From positions 2,216,132-2,280,131 of the forward strand of contig OY282519.1 in assembly GCA_958296405.1 (NCBI GenBank): a stretch of DNA of 64,000 nucleotides, in the 5' to 3' direction. The notes under the pieces are model-generated. The model was not told the DNA's origin and made no database searches. It worked only from the letters and a program-made list of their open reading frames with translations. Of the stretch, positions 1 through 9,609 are shown in pieces. The stretch's first letter is position 1. Each line of letters opens with the position of its first letter. The position numbers and the translations under genes are program-made. This DNA comes from an uncultured Pseudomonadales bacterium. Its GTDB lineage: Bacteria > Pseudomonadota > Gammaproteobacteria > Pseudomonadales > Azotimanducaceae.

Positions 1-2007
1 GCACCAACGCCGGATGCGCCGCGTCGCGTTGCAGCCTGGCTCACGCCGGGGCGCGGGGCGCTGCTCGTCGCAGCGGCCGCGACGGCGTGGTTCCTGTGGT
101 TTTTGTTCACCGCCAAGTCCGTGCGGTTCGACATCGACCCACCCACCGCGGCCGTGACCGTAAGCGGCGGCTTCGAACTGCAGTTCTCCGGCATCCGGCT
201 GTTGCGTGAGGGGCGTTACCAATTGCAGGCCACGGCGGCTGGCTATCACCCGCTGGAGGCCGAGGTCGATGTGGCGGCGCCGCGCAACCAGACACTCTCC
301 TTCGCCCTTGCGCCATTGCCAGGCCGGGTGACATTTCAATCCACGCCCCCCGGCGCCACCGTGCGCGTGGATGGCGAGGCCTTTGGCGTGACGCCGTTGG
401 TCGCGGATGTTGCCGCTGGAGCACGGGCCGTTGAGATGATCTTGGACATGCACCAGCCGGCGCAGGCGACGGTCGATGTGATCGGCCGCGAAGTCGCCCA
501 AACCGTCGCGCACACGCTGCGTCCAGACTGGGCATCGGTGACGCTGGTCACGTCGCCGCCGGGTGCTGGGATTTATGCGGACGACGTGCTGGTCGGCGCC
601 GCGCCGGGCCCAGTGCGTGTGCCGAGCGGCGAGCGGCGCATCGAGGTGCGGCTCGACGGCCACAAGACTTGGCGCGATGTTTTGCATGTCGTCGCGGAGC
701 AGCAACTGACACTGCCGCCGGTGACCCTTGCCCGCGCCGATGGCCTGCTGACGGTGCGGTCAACGCCGCTTGGCGCCGGCGTGACGGTCAATGGCGCGTA
801 TCGGGGCGTCACCCCCACCCAAATCGAGGTGGCGCCGGGGCGTTCCCATCAAGTTGAGGTATCTCTGGCAGGACATGCGCCGGTGACGCGCCGCGTCCGC
901 GCGCAGTCGAGCCGAGAGATGTTCGTGGACGTAGAGTTGGCGCCGCTGACGGGCGAGTTGGCCGTGACGCTTGCGCCGCCGGACGCGGAACTGTGGATCG
1001 ACGGTGCATTGGTCGGCGCGGGGTCGCGTACGCTGGCCTTGCCGGCGCGGGCACATGACGTTGAGGTGCGCAAGGAAGGGTACGCCGGCTACCGCCGCGC
1101 AGTGACGCCGCAGCCGGGTTTCATGCAGGAGCTCAAGGTGCGCCTGCTCACCTTGGAGGAAGCGCGCGTCGCCCGCTTGACGCCAACCGTCACTACCTCC
1201 GCGGGCCAAGTGCTGCTGCTCCTGAAGCCGTCGCCGATTCGCTTGGGCGCTTCGCGCCGGGAGCCGGGCCGCCGCGCCAACGAGGCGTTGCGGGAAGTTC
1301 AGCTCACGCGGCTCTATTACCTTGGCGCGCGGGAAGTGACAAACGCCGAGTTCCGCGAGTTCGCCGGCGGCCACGCCTCCGGCGAGTTCGAGACGCTCGA
1401 CATCGACAAAGACGCGCAGCCGGTGGCCAACGTCGCTTGGGAAGAGGCGGCGCTGTACTGCAATTGGCTTTCAGAGCGCGACGGTCTCGTGCCCTTTTAC
1501 TTGGTGGAGTTCGGCAAGGTGACGGGCTTCGTCGACAGCGCCGTGGGCTATCGCTTGCCCACCGAGGCGGAGTGGGCTTGGGCCGCGCGCCATGCGGGCG
1601 AAGACGAGCCGCTGCTGCGCTTTCCGTGGGGCGACCAACTGCCGCCGGAGAACCGGCACGGCAACTATGCGGACGCTTCGGCGCGGCATGTGGTGGGGCG
1701 CATCGTCTTCGGCTACAACGACAACCACATCGTCAGCGCGCCCGTGGGCACCTTCAAGCCGAACGCCAAGGGCCTGTATGACTTGGGCGGCAATGTGGCC
1801 GAGTGGGTACACGATTACTACGACATTCCGGAGCCGGATGCGCCAACGAACCCGCTTGGCCCCCCAACGGGCGACTACCACGTCATCAAGGGCTCAAGCT
1901 GGATGCACGGCGCCATCTCGGAACTGCGCCTCGCGTTTCGAGACTATGGCGCCAAGGGGCGGCCCGATGTCGGCTTTCGCATCGCCCGCTTCGCGGAGGC
2001 GCAATGA
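1..2007 (+). CDS. PEGA-repeat protein with C-terminal formylglycine-enzyme-like (SUMF1) domain, 5' end outside window
   Basis: The frame is open from base 1, so the N-terminus lies upstream. The first visible codons form a membrane segment (about residues 20-36, rich in Leu, Ala, Trp and Phe). About five PEGA-type repeats of roughly 70 residues follow (signature S/TPPGA...VDG...G.TP), then a domain of the FGE-sulfatase/C-type-lectin fold over about the last 230 residues, with YRLPTEAEWAWAAR, GLYDLGGNVAEWV and VGFRIAR. PEGA domains are usually extracytoplasmic, so the protein is probably a membrane-anchored periplasmic sensor or scaffold. The Cys residues needed for formylglycine formation are absent near the C-terminus (ELRLAFRDYG), so catalysis is unlikely. 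It overlaps the next gene by ATGA and heads the VWA/TolQ-like operon. Confidence 0.85.
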   Translation, partial: APTPDAPRRVAAWLTPGRGALLVAAAATAWFLWFLFTAKSVRFDIDPPTAAVTVSGGFELQFSGIRLLREGRYQLQATAAGYHPLEAEVDVAAPRNQTLSFALAPLPGRVTFQSTPPGATVRVDGEAFGVTPLVADVAAGARAVEMILDMHQPAQATVDVIGREVAQTVAHTLRPDWASVTLVTSPPGAGIYADDVLVGAAPGPVRVPSGERRIEVRLDGHKTWRDVLHVVAEQQLTLPPVTLARADGLLTVRSTPLGAGVTVNGAYRGVTPTQIEVAPGRSHQVEVSLAGHAPVTRRVRAQSSREMFVDVELAPLTGELAVTLAPPDAELWIDGALVGAGSRTLALPARAHDVEVRKEGYAGYRRAVTPQPGFMQELKVRLLTLEEARVARLTPTVTTSAGQVLLLLKPSPIRLGASRREPGRRANEALREVQLTRLYYLGAREVTNAEFREFAGGHASGEFETLDIDKDAQPVANVAWEEAALYCNWLSERDGLVPFYLVEFGKVTGFVDSAVGYRLPTEAEWAWAARHAGEDEPLLRFPWGDQLPPENRHGNYADASARHVVGRIVFGYNDNHIVSAPVGTFKPNAKGLYDLGGNVAEWVHDYYDIPEPDAPTNPLGPPTGDYHVIKGSSWMHGAISELRLAFRDYGAKGRPDVGFRIARFAEAQ

Positions 2008-2318
2008 ATGTGGGCAGCGCGGCTTGGTTCGCGTTGCTGGCGGCTTTGGCCGGCGGCGCGACGTTCGCAGCGGATGCCGACGGCGATGCGCCGGCGCCGG
2101 CGGACGCCGCGGCGCAACAGGCCGAGCCGGAGGAAGCAAGCGACCGCGGCGCCGCCAGTGAACAAACCGAGCCGCCCCCCACAGCGGCACCGCAACCCGC
2201 GGCAGAACCCGAACCGGCTCTAGATGCCGCCGCCGATGCAGCCCACTCGCCGGAGGTGTTCGTTCCCACCGAGGACATCTCCGAAGACCTTTCCGTGCGC
2301 TTTCCGGTGGACATCTAG
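2004..2318 (+). CDS. small exported Ala/Pro/Glu-rich protein
   Basis: This 104-residue protein starts at ATG 2004, overlapping the upstream stop codon by four bases (ATGA), which implies translational coupling. Residues 1-23 look like a Sec signal peptide (hydrophobic core AWFALLAALAGGATF, then AADAD). The mature part is a low-complexity Ala/Pro/Glu linker ending in a more ordered acidic tail (TEDISEDLSVRFPVDI). I recognise no family. Its place between the PEGA protein and the channel gene suggests an envelope accessory or tether for that system. Coding status is supported by the overlap and signal peptide rather than by homology. Confidence 0.6.
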   Translation: MNVGSAAWFALLAALAGGATFAADADGDAPAPADAAAQQAEPEEASDRGAASEQTEPPPTAAPQPAAEPEPALDAAADAAHSPEVFVPTEDISEDLSVRFPVDI

Positions 2319-2319
2319 C

Positions 2320-2346
2320 TTGGCTGGCCGGCGCCGGCGCTATACT
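2320..2346 (+). promoter_or_regulatory. candidate internal promoter before the channel gene
   Basis: TTGGCT (2320-2325) and TATACT (2341-2346) are separated by 15 bases holding the palindrome GCCGGCGCCGGC. They lie in the only sizeable gap (81 bp) of the operon. The -10 match is good and the spacing is short. The palindrome could also act as a weak attenuator. Confidence 0.3.
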
Positions 2347-2399
2347 GTCGCGGCTCCGGCAGGAGGCCGCCGCGCCGCTCCCACTGGTGTGATGCCGAA

Positions 2400-3197
2400 A
2401 TGAAAAGAAGCCTGCCGTTCGAATCCATCTATCAGGCCGCCGCGCTGATCCTCGCCATCATCGTGGTGCATCTGGTGTACGTCACCGCGGTGCGCCCCAA
2501 CGCCGATGCCATTCTTGAGGCGCGCGCGGCGCAATCCGCCGCCGGCGAGGCGGTGAATCAGCAACGCTCGCTGTATGTGGTGCTGCGCGATTACGAGCAG
2601 GAATCCTGCTTTGTGCTCGGCTTATGGGCCATCGCGATCATCGGCTTCAAGGCGCGTAACTCCCTGCGCGAGCGGCGCCTGCTGGATGCGAACTTGGTGC
2701 AGGTGAGCGAAGGCATGAGCATCCTGCCCGAAGACACGCGCGAATATGCGCGCTCGGTGCAGGCGCTGCCGCCGGACGCGCAGAATCAACTGTTGCCGCG
2801 GGCGCTGTTGGCCGCGTTGCAGCGCTTCGCCTCCACCCGCAACGTGCATGACGTCTCCGAGGCCGTGCGCCAAGTGTGCGAGGCGGAATCTGACCGGTTG
2901 GACAGCGAACTCTCAATGGTGCGCTACATCACTTGGGCCATCCCGTCCATCGGCTTCATCGGCACGGTGCGCGGCATCGGCGACGCGCTCGGCCAAGCCT
3001 ACGAGGCAGTGGGCGGCGACATCGCCGGCGTCACGGAGAGCTTGGGCGTGGCGTTCAACTCCACGTTCGTCGCCCTCGTCATCAGCATCTTCATTCGCTT
3101 TTTGGTCGATCAAGGGCAGCTCATCCAAGAACGCTTGACGCTGGATGTGCAAACCTGGTGCGACCGCCAGCTCATCCGCCACATGCAGGTGCGCTGA
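2400..3197 (+). CDS. MotA/TolQ/ExbB-family proton channel protein
   Basis: The protein has 265 residues with predicted membrane segments near 11-31, 70-85, 178-198 and 217-236. The last two carry the family signature: IPSIGFIGTVRGIGDAL, equivalent to the TolQ/ExbB GLLGTVxGI segment with T189, and VAFNSTFVALVIS with T222. Family members form pentamers around a dimer of TolR/ExbD/MotB-type partners and convert proton flow into mechanical work. No TolR, ExbD or MotB gene adjoins it; instead two VWA proteins with a single Asp-bearing helix follow downstream. It is separated by one base from the next gene. The long loop between segments 2 and 3 (about 90 residues) should be cytoplasmic, as in TolQ. 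Confidence 0.85.
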   Translation: MKRSLPFESIYQAAALILAIIVVHLVYVTAVRPNADAILEARAAQSAAGEAVNQQRSLYVVLRDYEQESCFVLGLWAIAIIGFKARNSLRERRLLDANLVQVSEGMSILPEDTREYARSVQALPPDAQNQLLPRALLAALQRFASTRNVHDVSEAVRQVCEAESDRLDSELSMVRYITWAIPSIGFIGTVRGIGDALGQAYEAVGGDIAGVTESLGVAFNSTFVALVISIFIRFLVDQGQLIQERLTLDVQTWCDRQLIRHMQVR

Positions 3198-3198
3198 C

Positions 3199-4467
3199 GT
3201 GTGGACGCTGGAGTTGAACGACGCCGAGCTGGCGCTCTCCCGCGATGGCGAGGTGGTGTTTCAGGAGCCGGGCGTGGCGTCGCTGGCTGGGCGCGAGCCC
3301 GTGTTCGGCGCCGCCGCCTTGGCCGTCGCGCGCCTGCATCCGCGCCAGAGCCACAGCCAATATCTGGGGCGCATGAATGCAGACCCGGTGGCCCCCGCCG
3401 CACCGGGCATCGCCAATCAGGCAGACCTCGTCTATCGGCACCTGCAGCGCATGAAGGCGGCGGCGAACTTGGGCGATGGCGAGCCAGTGCGGATATTGGT
3501 GCCGAGCGCGAGCACTCCAGAGCAATTGGCGCTATTGCTTGGCATTGCACAGGAAGTGCGCCTCAACGTGGTGGCGCTCATCGACGCCGCGGTGGCTGCC
3601 GCCGCGGCGATCCCCCTTGCAGGGGCGGCGCAACTCGTGGACGTGGCGTTGCACCGAGCGCAGCTGACCAAGTTGGCCGTGGCCGACGACGTGCAGCGCC
3701 AAGACGCGGAGGAGGAGGCCGAGGCGGGCCTCATGCGCCTGCTTGAAGGTTGGGTGGATGCGGTGGCAGACCACTTTGTCGCGGAAACCCGCTTCGACCC
3801 GCTGCGCGTTGCGGCGACGGAACAGCAGGTATTCGACCAAGTGTGCGCCGCCATCGCCGATGCGGCGGGGCAAGGTGCGCGGGAGCTCGTGGTGGAGACG
3901 GAGCACCGCGGCGAGGTGCGCGCCGTGGGGATGCCTTGGAGCGTGCTGTGGGAAAAATCCCGGCAACGTTATGAGCGCTTGGAGCAACGCTTGAACCCGG
4001 CGGCGCAGGTGCTTTTGACGCAGCGCGCGGCGCGGTTGCCGGGGCTTTTGGAACTGTTGCGCGAAGCGGGCCACGAAACCCAGATATTGCCGGGCGCGGC
4101 GTCCCGCAACGGCGCCCGAAGCGTGGTGGCGACGCCGGCAGCGGAGGACGGGGTGAGCTTCGTCACTGCGCTGCCGCGCCATGCCGGCGCTGCGCCACCG
4201 GCGGTGAATCCGTTGGGCACGCATCTGCTCTGCGACGCGGTGGCGGTGCCGCTCGCCGATGCGTTCGACGCGCGCCGCTGCCCGGAGGCCGCCGGCGCTG
4301 CGTTCCGCATCGTCAAGCGCCCGGACGGGCACTATGTGCTGCCGAATGGCGCAGCGCCCGTCACCATCGATGGCCGGCGCGTCGATGGCGAGGCGCCAGC
4401 CGCGCTGGGAGCGAGAATCGCCAGCGACGGGCGCGAGTTCCGCATCGTGCGCGTCATTGAGGAATGA
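3199..4467 (+). CDS. unrecognised cytoplasmic protein, possibly degenerate actin/Hsp70-like with FHA-like C-terminus
   Basis: It starts at GTG 3199, one base after the channel gene stop, and encodes 422 residues with no signal peptide or membrane segment. The N-terminus (MWTLELNDAELALSRDG) and the LNVVALIDAAVAAAAAIPLAG segment resemble strands of the actin/Hsp70 ATPase fold, but I see no clear phosphate-binding loops. The last 50 residues (VTIDGRRV, then ALGARIASDGREFRIVRV) resemble the final strands of an FHA-like sandwich. These are weak resemblances, not assignments. Its position between the proton channel and the two VWA genes, with near-zero spacing, implies a cytoplasmic component of the same machine. 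Confidence 0.7.
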   Translation: MWTLELNDAELALSRDGEVVFQEPGVASLAGREPVFGAAALAVARLHPRQSHSQYLGRMNADPVAPAAPGIANQADLVYRHLQRMKAAANLGDGEPVRILVPSASTPEQLALLLGIAQEVRLNVVALIDAAVAAAAAIPLAGAAQLVDVALHRAQLTKLAVADDVQRQDAEEEAEAGLMRLLEGWVDAVADHFVAETRFDPLRVAATEQQVFDQVCAAIADAAGQGARELVVETEHRGEVRAVGMPWSVLWEKSRQRYERLEQRLNPAAQVLLTQRAARLPGLLELLREAGHETQILPGAASRNGARSVVATPAAEDGVSFVTALPRHAGAAPPAVNPLGTHLLCDAVAVPLADAFDARRCPEAAGAAFRIVKRPDGHYVLPNGAAPVTIDGRRVDGEAPAALGARIASDGREFRIVRVIEE

Positions 4468-4470
4468 GAC

Positions 4471-5553
4471 GTGGCGCGGCGGCGGCGCTTCGAGGTCTTT
4501 TCGTTGGCGTTCTTGGATGTGATGTCCTGCGGCTTCGGCGCCGTGGTGCTCATCTTTCTCATCATCGAGCACTCCGTGAGCGACTCGGTGCATGCGCTGG
4601 ATCGGGATCTCCTCTCCGAAATACGCCTGCTGGACTACGAGCTCGACGCCGGCAAGCCTAATCTGGTCGATCTTGAACAGCGCTCGGAAGCGCTGCGGCG
4701 GCGCCTTGGGCAAACACGGCAGGAGCGTGTCGCAGTGGTCGCGGATGCGGAGCGCAAGCGCGAGGAACTCGATGATTTGGAGGCGCTCACCATTGCGAGC
4801 GAGGAGAGCGTCGAAGATCTGAAGACGGATGTGGAGACGCGCCGGCGCGAGGTGGAGCGCTTGCGCGCCATCGAGGAGGAGAACGCCGGCCGCGCCCCGA
4901 TCTTCGTTGAGGGAGAAGGCGATCGGCAGTACCTCACGGGTCTCTTCGTCGGCGGCACGCACATCCTCATCGCGCTGGACGCTTCCGCGAGCATGCTCGA
5001 TGTCACGCTGGTGAACGTCATTCGGCGTCGCAACATGCCCATTGATCGGCAACTGCGCTCGCCCAAGTGGCAGCGCGCCGTGCGCACCGTGGAGTGGTTG
5101 GCGGCGCAGCTACCCATCGACAGCGCCTTCCAGATACTCCTCTTCAACACCGAAGCGAAGAGCGCATTCACTTCGCCCGCGTGGCGGAACGCGACGGATG
5201 CGGACGCGCTGGCGGATGCCATTGAACGCATCGGCGGCACGGCGCCGAGCGGCGGCACCAGCTTGGAGAACTTGTTCGTCGCCGTCAGCCGCATGAACCC
5301 GCCGCCGGACAACCTGTTCCTCATCGTGGACAGCTTGCCGACGCAGGGCGCTTCGGCCCCCCGCGCCGCCACGGTGACGGGCCGCCAACGCATGGCGCAT
5401 TTCGAGGATGCGACGGCGCGCGTGCCGCCGCAGTTGCCCGTGAACGTCATCATGTTCCCAATGGAGGGCGACCCATCGGCTTCGGCGGCGTATTGGTCGC
5501 TGGCGCAGAACACTGGCGGCACCTATTTGGCGCCTTCGGAGGACTGGCCGTGA
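4471..5553 (+). CDS. membrane-anchored VWA-domain protein (first paralogue)
   Basis: The 360-residue protein starts at GTG 4471, three bases after the upstream stop. It has a basic N-terminus (MARRRR), then a single membrane helix over residues 11-33 with an early acidic residue (FSLAFLDVMSCGFGAVVL, D16). A charged, probably coiled-coil region spans about 65-137. A von Willebrand factor A domain from about residue 155 carries the metal-site motif D170-A-S-A-S174. The helix layout resembles MotB, TolR and ExbD, whose Asp near the cytoplasmic end of the helix is the proton-binding residue. With the adjacent channel gene this suggests a stator-like unit whose periplasmic domain is VWA instead of OmpA-like. 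Its paralogue follows with a GTGA overlap. Confidence 0.85.
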   Translation: MARRRRFEVFSLAFLDVMSCGFGAVVLIFLIIEHSVSDSVHALDRDLLSEIRLLDYELDAGKPNLVDLEQRSEALRRRLGQTRQERVAVVADAERKREELDDLEALTIASEESVEDLKTDVETRRREVERLRAIEEENAGRAPIFVEGEGDRQYLTGLFVGGTHILIALDASASMLDVTLVNVIRRRNMPIDRQLRSPKWQRAVRTVEWLAAQLPIDSAFQILLFNTEAKSAFTSPAWRNATDADALADAIERIGGTAPSGGTSLENLFVAVSRMNPPPDNLFLIVDSLPTQGASAPRAATVTGRQRMAHFEDATARVPPQLPVNVIMFPMEGDPSASAAYWSLAQNTGGTYLAPSEDWP

Positions 5554-6560
5554 AGCGCGGCAAACGCCGCTTGGTGGAGGAGTTCAGCTTGTCCTTCTTG
5601 GACGTGATCTGCTGTGGCTTCGGCGCCATCGTGCTGCTGCTGATCATCACGTCCACGCTGCAGCAAACCGTGTTTGAGGAAACGGATCTGGACCTCGACG
5701 GTCAAGTGGCGCAGCGCCGCGACGCCGTGCATGTGCTGCGTGGCCAAACGCGCACGCTGACGCGCCAAGTCGAGGATCGTCAGGCGCAACTCGACAAGGA
5801 GTTGCAGGAGCTTGCGAAGAACCGCCGCGAGTTGTCGGAGATCCTGGGCCAGTTCACCGCCACTGCCGAGCAAGCCGACACCCAAGCCGAGGCGCGCAGC
5901 GAGTTGGCCGCCGCGCGCCAGAGCCTCACCGATGAGATGACGCGCCTGCTCGGCGCCGGCTTCGAGCGCCAAGACAACGTGATCGGCGGCATCACGGTGG
6001 ATTCGGAGTACATCATCTTCGTCATCGACACATCCGGCAGCATGCAGCGCTTCGCGTGGGGCGCGGTGGTGCGCAAACTCGGCGAGACGCTGCAGATCTA
6101 TCCGGAGGTGAAGGGCATCCAAGTGCTGAACGACATGGGCGACTATATGTTCAGCAACTTTCGAGACCGCTGGATTCCCGATTCGCCGACCCGCCGCGAG
6201 GCCATCACGCGGCGTTTGGAGACATGGGCGCCGTTCTCCAATTCAAGCCCGGTGGAAGGCATCGAGAAGGCCATCACGCAGTTCTGGGCGCCGGACAAGA
6301 AAATCAGCGTCTACGTGTTCGGCGATGATTACAGCGGCGGTTCCATCGAGGAAGTGGTGGACACCGTGGATCGCATGAACCGCGCTGACGCATCGGGCGA
6401 GCGCCGGGTGCGCATTCATGCGGTGGGCTTCCCGGTGATCTTCATGGCCGCTTCGCCGCGCCAACAGCAATCCGCCTATCGCTTCGCCGCGCTGATGCGT
6501 GAACTGACGTGGCGCAACAACGGCACTTTCGTGGGGCTTGGGTTGGACGTGCTGCGTTAG
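5550..6560 (+). CDS. membrane-anchored VWA-domain protein (second paralogue)
   Basis: The GTG start at 5550 overlaps the TGA of the preceding gene, giving 336 residues. The design matches its neighbour: a basic N-terminus, a membrane helix over about 13-34 with the same signature (FSLSFLDVICCGFGAIVL, D18), a long predicted coiled coil (about 50-130), and a VWA domain with a perfect metal site D160-T-S-G-S164. The shared FSLxFLDVxxCGFGA segment is the best-conserved stretch between the two proteins and is probably the part that packs against the channel. A heterodimer of the two VWA proteins in the channel pore is an attractive model. The gene ends the operon; 171 bp separate it from the efflux genes. 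Confidence 0.87.
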   Translation: MKRGKRRLVEEFSLSFLDVICCGFGAIVLLLIITSTLQQTVFEETDLDLDGQVAQRRDAVHVLRGQTRTLTRQVEDRQAQLDKELQELAKNRRELSEILGQFTATAEQADTQAEARSELAAARQSLTDEMTRLLGAGFERQDNVIGGITVDSEYIIFVIDTSGSMQRFAWGAVVRKLGETLQIYPEVKGIQVLNDMGDYMFSNFRDRWIPDSPTRREAITRRLETWAPFSNSSPVEGIEKAITQFWAPDKKISVYVFGDDYSGGSIEEVVDTVDRMNRADASGERRVRIHAVGFPVIFMAASPRQQQSAYRFAALMRELTWRNNGTFVGLGLDVLR

Positions 6561-6731: not shown

Positions 6732-7868
6732 ATGGCAGAGGTCGCGCGCATCGAACCGGAACGCCCCGCCCGCCCCGCGGGCGTGCGCCGGCGGCGCATC
6801 TCGGCGCGGGCAGCACTGCTCGTGGCTGGCGGCGCCTTGGGCGCGGCGCTGGGCGGCTGGTGGCTCTATGACCGCCTCGCCAATGTCTATGTCGTCGATG
6901 CCCGGGTCGGCGCGACCATGGTGTTGCTGAGCAGCCGCGTCGCTGGTTGGGTGACTGCGGTGCCGGCGAGTGAGGGGCAGCGCGTGGCGGCCGGCGCGCC
7001 GCTGATCGCGGTGGACGATCGCCAAGCACGGCTGCGCCGCGACGAACTGCAGGCGCAACTGGCCACCCTCGATGCGCGCATCGAGGCGGCGCAAGCGGAG
7101 ATCGAGTTCGTGCAGGCGCGCACGGCAAGCCGCATCGACGCCGCGGCATCTGCCTTGCAGGGCGCCCAGTCAGACTTGGAGGCGGCGGGTTCCATGCGCG
7201 AAACCCTGCACGACGAATGGCGGCGCGCTGATGCGCTGCGCAAACGCGGTCTGCTCTCCGATCAAGATTGGGCCTCGCGCCGCAATGCCTTCCGCACCGC
7301 GGAACAGGGCGAGGCGAGCCGCGAAGCGGAACTGCGCGGCGCCGCGGCGGGCCTGGCCGCGGCGCGCTCGGAGCAGGCGCGGATGGACATGCTGCGCGCG
7401 GACCTCACCCGGCTCAACAGCGAACGCCGCGCTGTCGTCCTGCAGGAGCAGCGCGCCGGGGAGGAACTGAACGACCACGTCGTCAAAGCGCCCATCGGCG
7501 GCATCATCGACGAGACGTTCATCGACCCAGGGGAGTACGTGGCCGCCGGCCAGCGCGTCTTGATGCTGCACGACCCAGGGGACATCTGGGTAGCGACGCG
7601 GGTGAAGGAGACGGATCTGCGCCACTTGCACGTCGGCAAGCGCGCCGAGGTGCGCGTGGACGCGTTCCCGGATGCGGTTTACTCGGCCGAGGTGTCGCAC
7701 ATCGGCCACGCCGCCACCAGCGAGTTCGCGCTGTTGCCCAATCCGAATCCCAGCGGCAACTTCACCAAGATCACCCAGCGCGTGGAGGTGAAGCTCACCT
7801 TCGACGAGCCGGATCCTAGGCTGCGCCCCGGCCTCATGGTGGAGGTGAAGGTGCCCAAGGGGGAGTGA
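6732..7868 (+). CDS. HlyD/EmrA-family membrane fusion protein
   Basis: The 378-residue protein has a short Arg-rich cytoplasmic tail, one membrane helix (about 26-46), then the membrane-fusion layout. This is a first half lipoyl motif (VGATMVLLSSRVAGWV), a long alpha-helical hairpin (about 95-240), the second lipoyl half (VKAPIGGIIDETFIDPGEYV) and a beta-barrel (GDIWVATRVKETDLRHL). The family bridges an inner-membrane exporter to an outer-membrane TolC channel. It lies 40 bp before a 14-helix DHA2-type MFS gene, the usual EmrA-EmrB arrangement. No TolC gene or regulator is present nearby, so the substrate cannot be predicted beyond a likely toxic hydrophobic compound. Confidence 0.92.
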   Translation: MAEVARIEPERPARPAGVRRRRISARAALLVAGGALGAALGGWWLYDRLANVYVVDARVGATMVLLSSRVAGWVTAVPASEGQRVAAGAPLIAVDDRQARLRRDELQAQLATLDARIEAAQAEIEFVQARTASRIDAAASALQGAQSDLEAAGSMRETLHDEWRRADALRKRGLLSDQDWASRRNAFRTAEQGEASREAELRGAAAGLAAARSEQARMDMLRADLTRLNSERRAVVLQEQRAGEELNDHVVKAPIGGIIDETFIDPGEYVAAGQRVLMLHDPGDIWVATRVKETDLRHLHVGKRAEVRVDAFPDAVYSAEVSHIGHAATSEFALLPNPNPSGNFTKITQRVEVKLTFDEPDPRLRPGLMVEVKVPKGE

Positions 7869-7908
7869 CCGCGACTCGGCGCCGCCGACGCGAAGAGGGG
7901 CAAGCCGC

Positions 7909-9609
7909 ATGGACATGCAAGCGCTTTGGCGCCGCCTGAAGGCGTTTGGCCGTGCGCCGGCACCCACGCCCGCCGGCGCCGCGGCGCCGGTGTCTGCGCC
8001 CGATGTGCCCCCAACAGGCAGCGCCGTTCCGCCGGGCCTTGAGGCAACGCCGGGCATCATCCGGCTGTACGAGCAGGTCGGGCCGAGGTATCCGTGGTAC
8101 GTGAGCATCGTCAGCGTGCTTGGCTCATTCGCCACGCTGCTCACCGCCACCATCGTCAACGTGGCCATCCCAGACATCATGGGCAGCCTCGGCATGACCA
8201 TGGACGAAGCGCAAACCTTGGTGAGCGCGTTCTTGGCCGCCGGCACGGTGACGATGCTGATGACGGCGTGGTGCATCCGCGCCTTCGGCATCGCCCACAC
8301 CTACGTCTTTTGCCTCTGCGTCTTCATCGCCTCCTCGGTGCTTGGCGGCATCGCCGCGACGGCCGAGACGCTGTTCATCGCCCGCCTCCTGCAGGGCGCC
8401 GCTTCCGGGGTGGTGACGCCGCTCACCATGGTGTTGATCGCGCAGGTGTTTCCGGTGTCGAAGCGCGGCATGGGGATGGGCCTCATGGGCGTCGGCACGG
8501 TGCTCGCCCCGGCCCTCGCCCCCGCCATCGGCGGTTATCTGGTGGACAACCTTTCGTGGCGGTGGGTGTTCTACATGGCCATCCCATTTGCCGCGGCGAG
8601 CTTGCCGTTTGCGCTTGCCTTGTTTCCAGCCCGCGAGGAGCGCGGCCCGCGGCCGCCGTTCGATTGGGCCGGCTTGGTGCTGTGCTCCACGTTTCTGACG
8701 ACGCTGCTCATCGCCTTGACCGAAGCGCAAAGCGAAGGCTGGCACGACGATCGCGTCGTCATCGCGCTGGCCGTGAGCGTTGTCGCCCTCGTGGCGTGGA
8801 TTGCGTGGGACATGCGCGCGGCACAACCGCTGTTGAACTTGCGGCTGCTGCGCAATGGCCGTTTCGCCAGCGCCGCGCTCGTCACCTTCACGGTGGGGGC
8901 CGGGCTGTACGGCTCCACCTACGTGTTTCCCTTGTTCCTGATGGAGGTGTCGCGCCTCATCCCGACGGATGCAGGGTTGAGCATGGCGCCGGCCGGGTTC
9001 GCGATGGCGGCGATGTTCCCGCTTTCGGGCTACTTGGCAGACCGGGTGTCCGCGCGCAGCTTGGTCACGGTCGGCTTGGCGATGGTGGCGTGGGCCTGCT
9101 GGCTGATGCGCGATGCGGACGCCTTCACCCCGATCGTTGACATGCTGGGGTGGTACATCATCGGGCGCGTCGGCATGGCGCTCATTTTTCCGGGCTTGAA
9201 TGCCGCCGCCGTGAATGCCCTGCCGCTGGAACTCATCCCCGCCGGCAGCGGCATGATCAACTTCCTGCGCCAATTTGGCGGCGCGTTGGGGGTGAGCGCC
9301 CTGTCGTTCGTGCTGATTGAACGCAGCGCGGAGCATCAGCTGCGCGTGATGGAAACGCAAACGTGGGACAACAGCGCCATGATGGAGCTCATGCGGCTGG
9401 TGCAAGAGCAGCTCGCCTACGTCGGCTTGGTGGGCTACCAAGCGTTCGAGATGAGTTTCACCTATGTGCTCGCGGTGGTGAACACGCAAAGCGGCATGCT
9501 GGGCTACCGCGAGAGCTTCATCGCCTTGGCGGCGGTGCTGGCCTTGTCCATCCTGCCGACTTGGACCATGGGGCCGAACCGCTCGCTAGCCGCGCGCCCT
9601 GGCCGCTAG
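7909..9609 (+). CDS. DHA2-family (EmrB-like) MFS drug exporter
   Basis: The 566-residue polytopic protein has about 14 predicted membrane helices after a 60-residue Pro/Ala-rich cytoplasmic extension that is longer than usual. Family signatures include TATIVNVAIPDIMGSLGM in the first helix pair, RLLQGAASGVVTPLTMVLI, and the antiporter motif in helix 5 (LMGVGTVLAPALAPAIGGYL). It should use the proton gradient to pump substrates into the upstream HlyD-like adaptor. Its stop codon shares the tetranucleotide CTAG with the stop of the convergent CoA-transferase gene. Confidence 0.92.
   Translation: MDMQALWRRLKAFGRAPAPTPAGAAAPVSAPDVPPTGSAVPPGLEATPGIIRLYEQVGPRYPWYVSIVSVLGSFATLLTATIVNVAIPDIMGSLGMTMDEAQTLVSAFLAAGTVTMLMTAWCIRAFGIAHTYVFCLCVFIASSVLGGIAATAETLFIARLLQGAASGVVTPLTMVLIAQVFPVSKRGMGMGLMGVGTVLAPALAPAIGGYLVDNLSWRWVFYMAIPFAAASLPFALALFPAREERGPRPPFDWAGLVLCSTFLTTLLIALTEAQSEGWHDDRVVIALAVSVVALVAWIAWDMRAAQPLLNLRLLRNGRFASAALVTFTVGAGLYGSTYVFPLFLMEVSRLIPTDAGLSMAPAGFAMAAMFPLSGYLADRVSARSLVTVGLAMVAWACWLMRDADAFTPIVDMLGWYIIGRVGMALIFPGLNAAAVNALPLELIPAGSGMINFLRQFGGALGVSALSFVLIERSAEHQLRVMETQTWDNSAMMELMRLVQEQLAYVGLVGYQAFEMSFTYVLAVVNTQSGMLGYRESFIALAAVLALSILPTWTMGPNRSLAARPGR

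Follow-up and report, generated by a model that had tools for sequence, protein, structure and literature searches.

A conserved cassette with a TolQ-like channel and two VWA proteins from an Azotimanducaceae genome probably encodes an ion-driven envelope motor

We analysed a stretch of 64,000 nucleotides (the window) from an uncultured Pseudomonadales bacterium of the family Azotimanducaceae, whose 3.8 Mb genome is a single contig; the window spans G000:C1:2216132-2280131. Its first 6,560 nucleotides encode, head to tail on one strand, a PEGA/FGE protein, a small exported protein, a TolQ-like channel subunit, a cytoplasmic protein, and two proteins with von Willebrand A domains, VWA1 and VWA2 (Table 1). 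This composition and order, first listed in an earlier note on the same DNA, were borne out by the open reading frames (ORFs), their strand, and their spacing. Well-studied ion-driven motors of the 5:2 type have ExbD-, TolR-, or MotB-type axles. The locus analysed here likely encodes a 5:2-type inner-membrane motor driven by the proton motive force, in which VWA1 and VWA2 would form the axle in place of ExbD, TolR, or MotB.

In the mechanism that we propose, five channel subunits would form a ring around an axle of VWA1 and VWA2, most likely one copy of each, with the two N-terminal helices in the pore and Asp16 and Asp18 facing the ring threonines. Ion flow would rotate the VWA pair, and the stalks would pass this motion on to the two periplasmic VWA heads, either turning or pulling them. 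Through the metal sites of their metal ion-dependent adhesion site (MIDAS) motifs, the heads may then act on a dedicated periplasmic or outer-membrane assembly encoded by the same cassette, whose parts would be a TPR protein, the PEGA/FGE scaffold, putative lipoproteins, and a peptide with a PxDI tail. In some lineages an Hsp70-like/FHA protein could serve as cytoplasmic adaptor or switch. Gene content, conservation, co-occurrence, and the lack of ExbD and MotB in the cassette are observations, whereas the copy numbers, the rotation, the pairing as a heterodimer, the use of the MIDAS sites, the outer-membrane target, and the cellular role are inferred.

Conserved residues of the VWA helices and the channel

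The transmembrane helix of each VWA protein carries an Asp that is invariant among distinct sequences: D16 of VWA1 in 125 of 125 and D18 of VWA2 in 127 of 127, counted over complete sequences of at least 250 residues with L014, L091, L200, and L201 set aside. The MIDAS residues are similarly well kept in alignments whose rows include duplicate sequences. For VWA1 (141 rows) these are D170 (140), S172 and S174 (141 each), T263 (127, with Ser in 13 more), and D287 (140), and for VWA2 (144 rows) D160, S162, and S164 (all 144) and D259 (143). A hydropathy scan found one N-terminal transmembrane segment per VWA protein, plus one stretch within the VWA1 domain, and the stalks are labelled coiled-coil-like on weak library matches alone. 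Readthrough of a stop codon in the VWA2 of some relatives (five rows with one TAA, TAG, or TGA inside) was considered and rejected; three of these loci (L124, L127, and L134) have a VWA2 frame that ends where the protein naturally does. A separate observation concerns genome G004, where three VWA2-profile matches at L009:7298-10987 correspond to VWA1 and apparently two tandem VWA2 copies.

In the channel, five residues (P182, G188, T189, N220, and T222) are invariant in all 109 distinct sequences, a count over complete sequences of at least 200 residues that leaves aside L200. When the channel profile was searched against the PDB, TolQ chains were the sole matches up to an E-value of 0.1, though weak ones (0.03), and T189 and T222 fall on TolQ threonines in this weak profile alignment. 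Both threonines would line the pore of the ring. Four hydrophobic segments can be recognised by eye (about residues 11-31, 68-86, 176-198, and 214-236), while a hydropathy scan marked two regions only (5-32 and 214-232). Sequence conservation of this kind, together with co-occurrence, backs the proposal of the earlier note that the VWA proteins are the channel's equivalent of ExbD, TolR, or MotB.

Co-occurrence of channel and VWA genes and the location of ExbD

The co-occurrence of the gene set was evaluated in loci gathered by VWA2 similarity, of which the best 80 of 537 confirmed are here called the named loci. Their titles are mainly gammaproteobacterial (Pseudomonadales or Gammaproteobacteria), and the cultured genera Microbulbifer, Exilibacterium, and Sediminihaliea are represented too; one locus titled as a Halobacteria archaeon (L078) is probably mis-binned. 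Sixty of the 80 have a VWA2 start at 9.8 kb or beyond, and a tblastn search of these 60 with the window's proteins recovered the channel, VWA1, and VWA2 in every one. The 422-residue cytoplasmic protein, the PEGA/FGE protein, the TPR protein, and the putative lipoprotein LP3 were each found in 59, the putative lipoprotein LP2 in 46, the small protein in 44, and the TPR/TonB protein in 29 (an under-count, as the loci end there). With this trio present in all 60 loci, its grouping goes beyond chance.

Genome-wide searches gave a similar picture. Among 369 genomes of the class, the VWA2 profile matched in 35, and the channel subfamily, delimited by a profile E-value of 1e-40 or lower, was found in 31, all within those 35. 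VWA2 itself (6e-76 or better) is carried by 28 of the 31; G144, G155, and G346 match the VWA2 profile (2e-11 to 1e-9) only through a VWA1 that adjoins the channel close to a contig end. Across the 369, VWA2 at 6e-76 or better never occurs in a genome that lacks the channel subfamily, and G269, where channel and VWA pair lie on separate contigs, has retained both. At the level of the phylum, the VWA2 profile was found in 17 of 299 genomes, 13 of them in one family outside the class and two of them weak. Within the window's own family a VWA2 match is present in 34 of 37 genomes, with an identity that declines with kinship, versus 3 of 21 genomes from other families of the order. This breadth, which takes in cultured Microbulbifer as well, makes a VWA-headed motor a tractable system.

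One competing explanation for the channel is that it is an ordinary TolQ/ExbB channel borrowing an ExbD encoded elsewhere in the genome, with the VWA proteins acting as side-binding force transducers in the manner of TonB or TolA. Such a donor is at hand, since ExbD is present elsewhere in all 31 channel-subfamily genomes, and one of the five ExbD sites in the window's genome has no nearby channel match; a vWA family that binds at the side and carries an SHLS motif is also on record (Williams-Jones et al., 2025, PMC12204202). We nevertheless find this explanation unlikely in view of the invariant Asp in both VWA helices and of where ExbD is found. The other four ExbD sites of the window's genome adjoin channels of their own, and no ExbD lies inside the cassette in any of the 31 genomes, as judged by eye from the listing and as far as contig ends allow. 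The nearest ExbD on the same contig is about 13 kb away in G416, 37 kb in G223, and more than 500 kb in the window's genome, where this distance holds for all five ExbD matches. A profile search found no MotB plug (PF13677) in the window's genome, and the OmpA family is absent among the cassette proteins scanned with Pfam. The earlier note had reported that TolR, ExbD, and MotB are missing from the gene set, which these data confirm; the pattern that it named as contrary evidence, a channel usually accompanied by ExbD or MotB and VWA genes occurring independently, was sought in the genome searches and not found.

Several points weigh against a motor with a VWA axle or limit the counts given for it. 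The counts from the named loci are conditional on VWA2, the channel subfamily was set apart by a cut-off of our own choosing, and in each genome searched no more than a part of the first-look candidates was scored. Weak VWA2-profile matches occur without the channel subfamily in four genomes (G089, 2e-6; G147, 5e-9; G337, 1e-4; G379, 1.5e-4), of which G147 (locus L200) has a related VWA protein adjoining a different channel and G089 (L201) a VWA1-type match. In G200, G312, and G408, all from one genus, the distance between an ExbD and the cassette is about 7-8 kb. Pfam VWA models stay below cut-off on both proteins (VWA_2: 0.001 for VWA1 and 0.13 for VWA2), and the VWA2 profile drew only coiled-coil chains from the PDB. 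Finally, we know of no phenotype for any member of the cassette.

Other channels of the same genome place the pairing in a broader setting. The window's genome has nine PF01618 matches, six of them beside four of the five ExbD sites; the window channel and two others are not. Among the eight channel loci compared, the channel of L208 is nearest to the window channel (1.6e-23). It belongs to an ExbD-less operon (L208:3757-11419, G000:C1:3073756-3081418) with kinase, PP2C, FHA, and trypsin domains by Pfam, and the protein that follows it matches the VWA profiles at its N-terminus (7e-9; 3e-5 for the helix part alone), while its head has no Pfam family match. The G147 locus mentioned above combines, by Pfam, a related channel with a helix-VWA protein (VWA_3, 1.4e-12) and has PP2C-, FHA-, and trypsin-like neighbours by eye. 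The ninth channel, also ExbD-less, is accompanied by a 205-residue membrane protein with an Asp in or near its N-terminal helix by eye (L209:5781-7224, G000:C1:503780-505223), which the VWA helix profiles did not recognise. Periplasmic heads may thus be interchangeable among channel-plus-helix motors.

The wider cassette and its layout

A second sample consisted of forty stretches from class- and phylum-level genomes, many of them truncated by contig ends. The usual order in these is LP2-LP3-TPR-PEGA/FGE-(small)-channel-(422)-VWA1-VWA2. As exceptions, L181 and L183 have the channel gene after VWA2, the L182 stretch lacks it, LP3 was not recognised in L182 and L183, and L200 and L201 do not represent this cassette. 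The TPR protein and the putative lipoproteins are part of the conserved gene set.

The small exported protein has no Pfam match, and its C-terminal tail is the sole strongly conserved part. The tail P[VAIT]DI is terminal in 74 of 74 distinct homologues, though their recognition leaned largely on the tail. A positional search, which accepted any ORF of at least 40 codons between the PEGA/FGE and channel genes with a P[VAITLM]DI end, found a tailed ORF in 67 of 70 named loci and 28 of 30 class- and phylum-level loci. In L040, L041, and L056 the gaps were too short as extracted (L040 and L041 do carry the tail), and the other misses end in PSDI (L184) or in FPADI adjoining the channel (L204). As background, the tail end occurs on 108 of the 24,011 ORFs of this kind across these 120 loci, the expected ones included. 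In a distant family the small protein is cut down to a membrane or signal segment and a short FPVDI or FPLDI tail. The PxDI end would most naturally be a dedicated ligand tail. A general export tag was ruled out for the window's genome, in which F-P-(V/A/I/T, few others)-D-I-stop, with no mismatches allowed, occurs only once, in the cassette. The wider parts list and this near-invariant tail make the motor's pulling target a directly testable question.

For the PEGA/FGE protein, the closest PDB chains to the profile are FGE/SUMF1 (FGE, 1.2e-29), with PorK/GldK also among the matches (PorK, 2.5e-25). Catalysis by FGE uses C-terminal cysteines. The region of the PEGA/FGE protein aligned to human FGE SYCYRYRC is cysteine-free, and for this reason a scaffold seems more likely than an oxidase. 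Among the putative lipoproteins, a simple lipobox pattern was found in 82 of 90 rows for LP3, 35 of 75 for LP2, and 103 of 116 and 86 of 108 for two further families downstream of VWA2 (rows include duplicates). Given these frequencies, the lipoprotein label is fair for LP3 and the two downstream families and doubtful for the LP2 family overall. LP3 and the two downstream families have no convincing Pfam family, and LP3 drew nothing below an E-value of 1 from the PDB.

The downstream families are present in 68 of the 73 named loci that have at least 2.5 kb of downstream DNA, where they typically start within about 700 bases 3' of VWA2. In the window both are missing after VWA2; they lie together on the opposite strand at about G000:C1:2327062-2328475 (L207:5060-6519, or G000:C1:2327059-2328518), some 104 kb away, which suggests a rearrangement in the window's lineage. 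A near relative, L004, also lacks them within its 10 kb of 3' DNA. Their usual place in the window (6732-9609) holds genes named from the translation by eye as HlyD/EmrA-like and EmrB-like.

The 422-residue protein, which the earlier note left unrecognised, indeed has no Pfam match in the window, but its relatives reveal more. An FHA domain is clear at the C-terminus of 5 of 37 homologues (to 4.7e-13), so the assignment is firm for some relatives; the window protein has no FHA profile match, and its aligned region is without FHA motif residues by eye. HSP70 matched in 3 of the 37 (best 2.5e-4) and in 2 of 66 in a closer homologue set. Against the PDB, a broad profile reached Hsp70 with 8e-4 over the whole chain and its stretches correctly ordered, the best single stretch having just 0.08, and a closer profile gave FHA-like and other chains only, with Hsp70 absent up to an E-value of 10. 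With hhalign, the N-terminal 320 residues aligned to Hsp70 (6 sequences) with a P-value of 2e-4 over 255 columns and a probability of 47%, versus 0.008 and 5% for MreB (3 sequences) and 0.32 to 0.91 for six other cassette alignments; the full-length values were 3e-4, 0.013, and, for controls, 0.053 to 0.91. The glycines of the glycine-rich phosphate-binding loops are missing in the alignments by eye. The Hsp70 results point both ways, and this assignment is moderate at most; we read the protein as a probable pseudo-Hsp70/FHA adaptor. Because its gene was recognised in 17 of the 40 class- and phylum-level stretches and the channel elsewhere often directly precedes VWA1, the protein is a lineage-dependent accessory.

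The six genes are tightly spaced, with an ATGA overlap between the PEGA/FGE and small-protein genes, 81 bases before the channel, 1 base before the 422-residue protein, 3 bases before VWA1, and a GTGA overlap between VWA1 and VWA2. The near-zero gaps and the 81-bp gap of the earlier note stand, whereas the gap before VWA1 slightly exceeds its limit of one base. Its gene set also stands but not the boundaries, since the operon extends 5.7 kb or more beyond the window's first base, with four further co-directional genes 5' of the PEGA/FGE gene. A pair encoding an MbnB/TglH/ChrH-family enzyme and a DUF2063 protein lies 5' of the operon on the same strand (L003:2235-3860, some 6.1-7.8 kb outside the window).

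Table 1. Genes of the cassette, in window positions or in positions of the upstream 10 kb (L003; window base 1 is L003:10001).
Gene product	Position	Strand	Features
TPR + TonB_C protein	L003:4290-5768	same as operon	
LP2, Pro/Ser-rich putative lipoprotein	L003:5870-6967	same as operon	
LP3, putative lipoprotein	end at L003:8343	same as operon	
Transmembrane-anchored TPR-like protein	L003:8386-9879	same as operon	TPR scores under Pfam cut-offs
PEGA repeats + FGE-like domain protein, 684 residues overall	1..2007; 5' end 48 bases upstream of the window (start L003:9953)	+	One N-terminal transmembrane segment; stop 2007; PEGA 5.6e-44, FGE-sulfatase 1.1e-39
Small exported protein, 104 residues	2004..2318	+	N-terminus signal-like by eye; linker rich in Ala, Pro, and Glu; tail at the C-terminus SEDLSVRFPVDI-COOH
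TolQ/ExbB/MotA-type channel subunit, 265 residues	2400..3197	+	MotA_ExbB 8e-13
Cytoplasmic protein, 422 residues	3199..4467	+	Probable Hsp70/actin-like domain, degenerate; FHA-type domain at the C-terminus, also degenerate here
VWA1	4471..5553	+	Transpore-type helix at the N-terminus FSLAFLDVMSCGFGA; stalk coiled-coil-like in composition; MIDAS DxSxS in the VWA domain
VWA2	5550..6560	+	Transpore-type helix at the N-terminus FSLSFLDVICCGFGA; stalk coiled-coil-like in composition; MIDAS DTSGS in the VWA domain

Possible roles and relation to known systems

The near-universal presence of the cassette in its own family favours envelope upkeep over defence as its cellular role. A bolder proposal, which we offer as speculation with a small chance of being right, is that of a complete and hitherto unrecognised trans-envelope machine with a heterodimeric VWA axle. 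The metal heads of the VWA proteins would be a clutch that catches the acidic, near-invariant PxDI-COOH tail of the exported peptide and puts force on an outer-membrane lipoprotein assembly only when the tail is bound. The machine would be one of a broader group of motors, each built from a channel and a transpore helix, whose periplasmic heads can be exchanged; in one sub-type, Ser/Thr phosphorylation sensed through FHA domains would be in control.

The cassette might instead power gliding or surface motility as an analogue of the Myxococcus Agl-Glt or Bacteroidota GldKLM machinery. The kinds of parts are similar (a motor, a TPR protein, an FHA domain, putative lipoproteins, and an FGE-like scaffold near PorK/GldK), and Agl-Glt core genes are also reported from Gammaproteobacteria (PMC3169522). 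We doubt this role, as the Agl-Glt motors rely on the ExbD/TolR-family proteins AglQ and AglS (PMC3169522), the likeness is one of domain kinds without demonstrated orthology, and outer-membrane barrel or adhesin families are absent among the cassette proteins scanned with Pfam. A Zorya-like anti-phage system with VWA proteins replacing ZorB, suggested because Zorya, too, combines a MotA-like channel and a periplasmic partner that bears an Asp, is highly improbable, given that PADLOC, whose library presumably includes ZorA/ZorB, gave no channel match and only weak VWA matches (best 0.0036) on 8 cassette proteins, that no nuclease or helicase was found among the cassette proteins scanned with Pfam, and that VWA2 follows kinship in its family as described above, unlike patchy defence islands.

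The VWA-axled motor shares parts with several known machines. ExbBD and TolQR have a channel of the same family (PF01618), an Asp-bearing single-pass partner, and conserved threonines, but the partners of the window channel are VWA proteins rather than ExbD/TolR (PF02472). MotAB likewise joins a PF01618 channel to an Asp-bearing partner, and the four membrane segments counted by eye in the window channel may be a further likeness; the window's genome differs in having no MotB-plug match, and the MotA profile score of its channel is weak (0.1). In the type IX secretion system, PorK/GldK with GldLM resembles the locus in that an FGE-like scaffold adjoins a proton motor, while the window scaffold has one N-terminal transmembrane segment and PEGA repeats and reaches 81 bits with the GldK model against a cut-off of 350. 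The Agl-Glt machinery also combines a motor with TPR and FHA partners but has AglQ/AglS where the window locus has VWA proteins.

The closest relatives are the TPH-vWA motors predicted by modelling (Williams-Jones et al., 2025, Mol Biol Evol msaf138, PMC12204202). As described there, in the one paper on vWA motor partners that our literature searches brought up, these have a TolQ-like channel, a heterologous vWA pair, a transpore helix with a conserved Asp, and no tolR or exbD. By the features tested (adjacent vWA genes without tolR/exbD, Asp helices, and channel threonines), the window locus appears to belong with them, and the claim of the earlier note that a VWA-based partner would be undescribed and of a new type is superseded by that 2025 publication. 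The term VWA does not occur in another paper, PMC12505986. The PEGA/FGE protein, lipoproteins, Hsp70/FHA protein, and PxDI peptide go unmentioned in section 8 and the Fig. 4 legend of PMC12204202, though Fig. 4c may show some neighbours, and a TPR gene is mentioned there for its other vWA family. Within those sections, the wider cassette, the Hsp70/FHA protein, the PxDI-tailed peptide, and the alternative heads appear undescribed. The motor concept is therefore known from that work, to which the extended description of the cassette adds a testable parts list.

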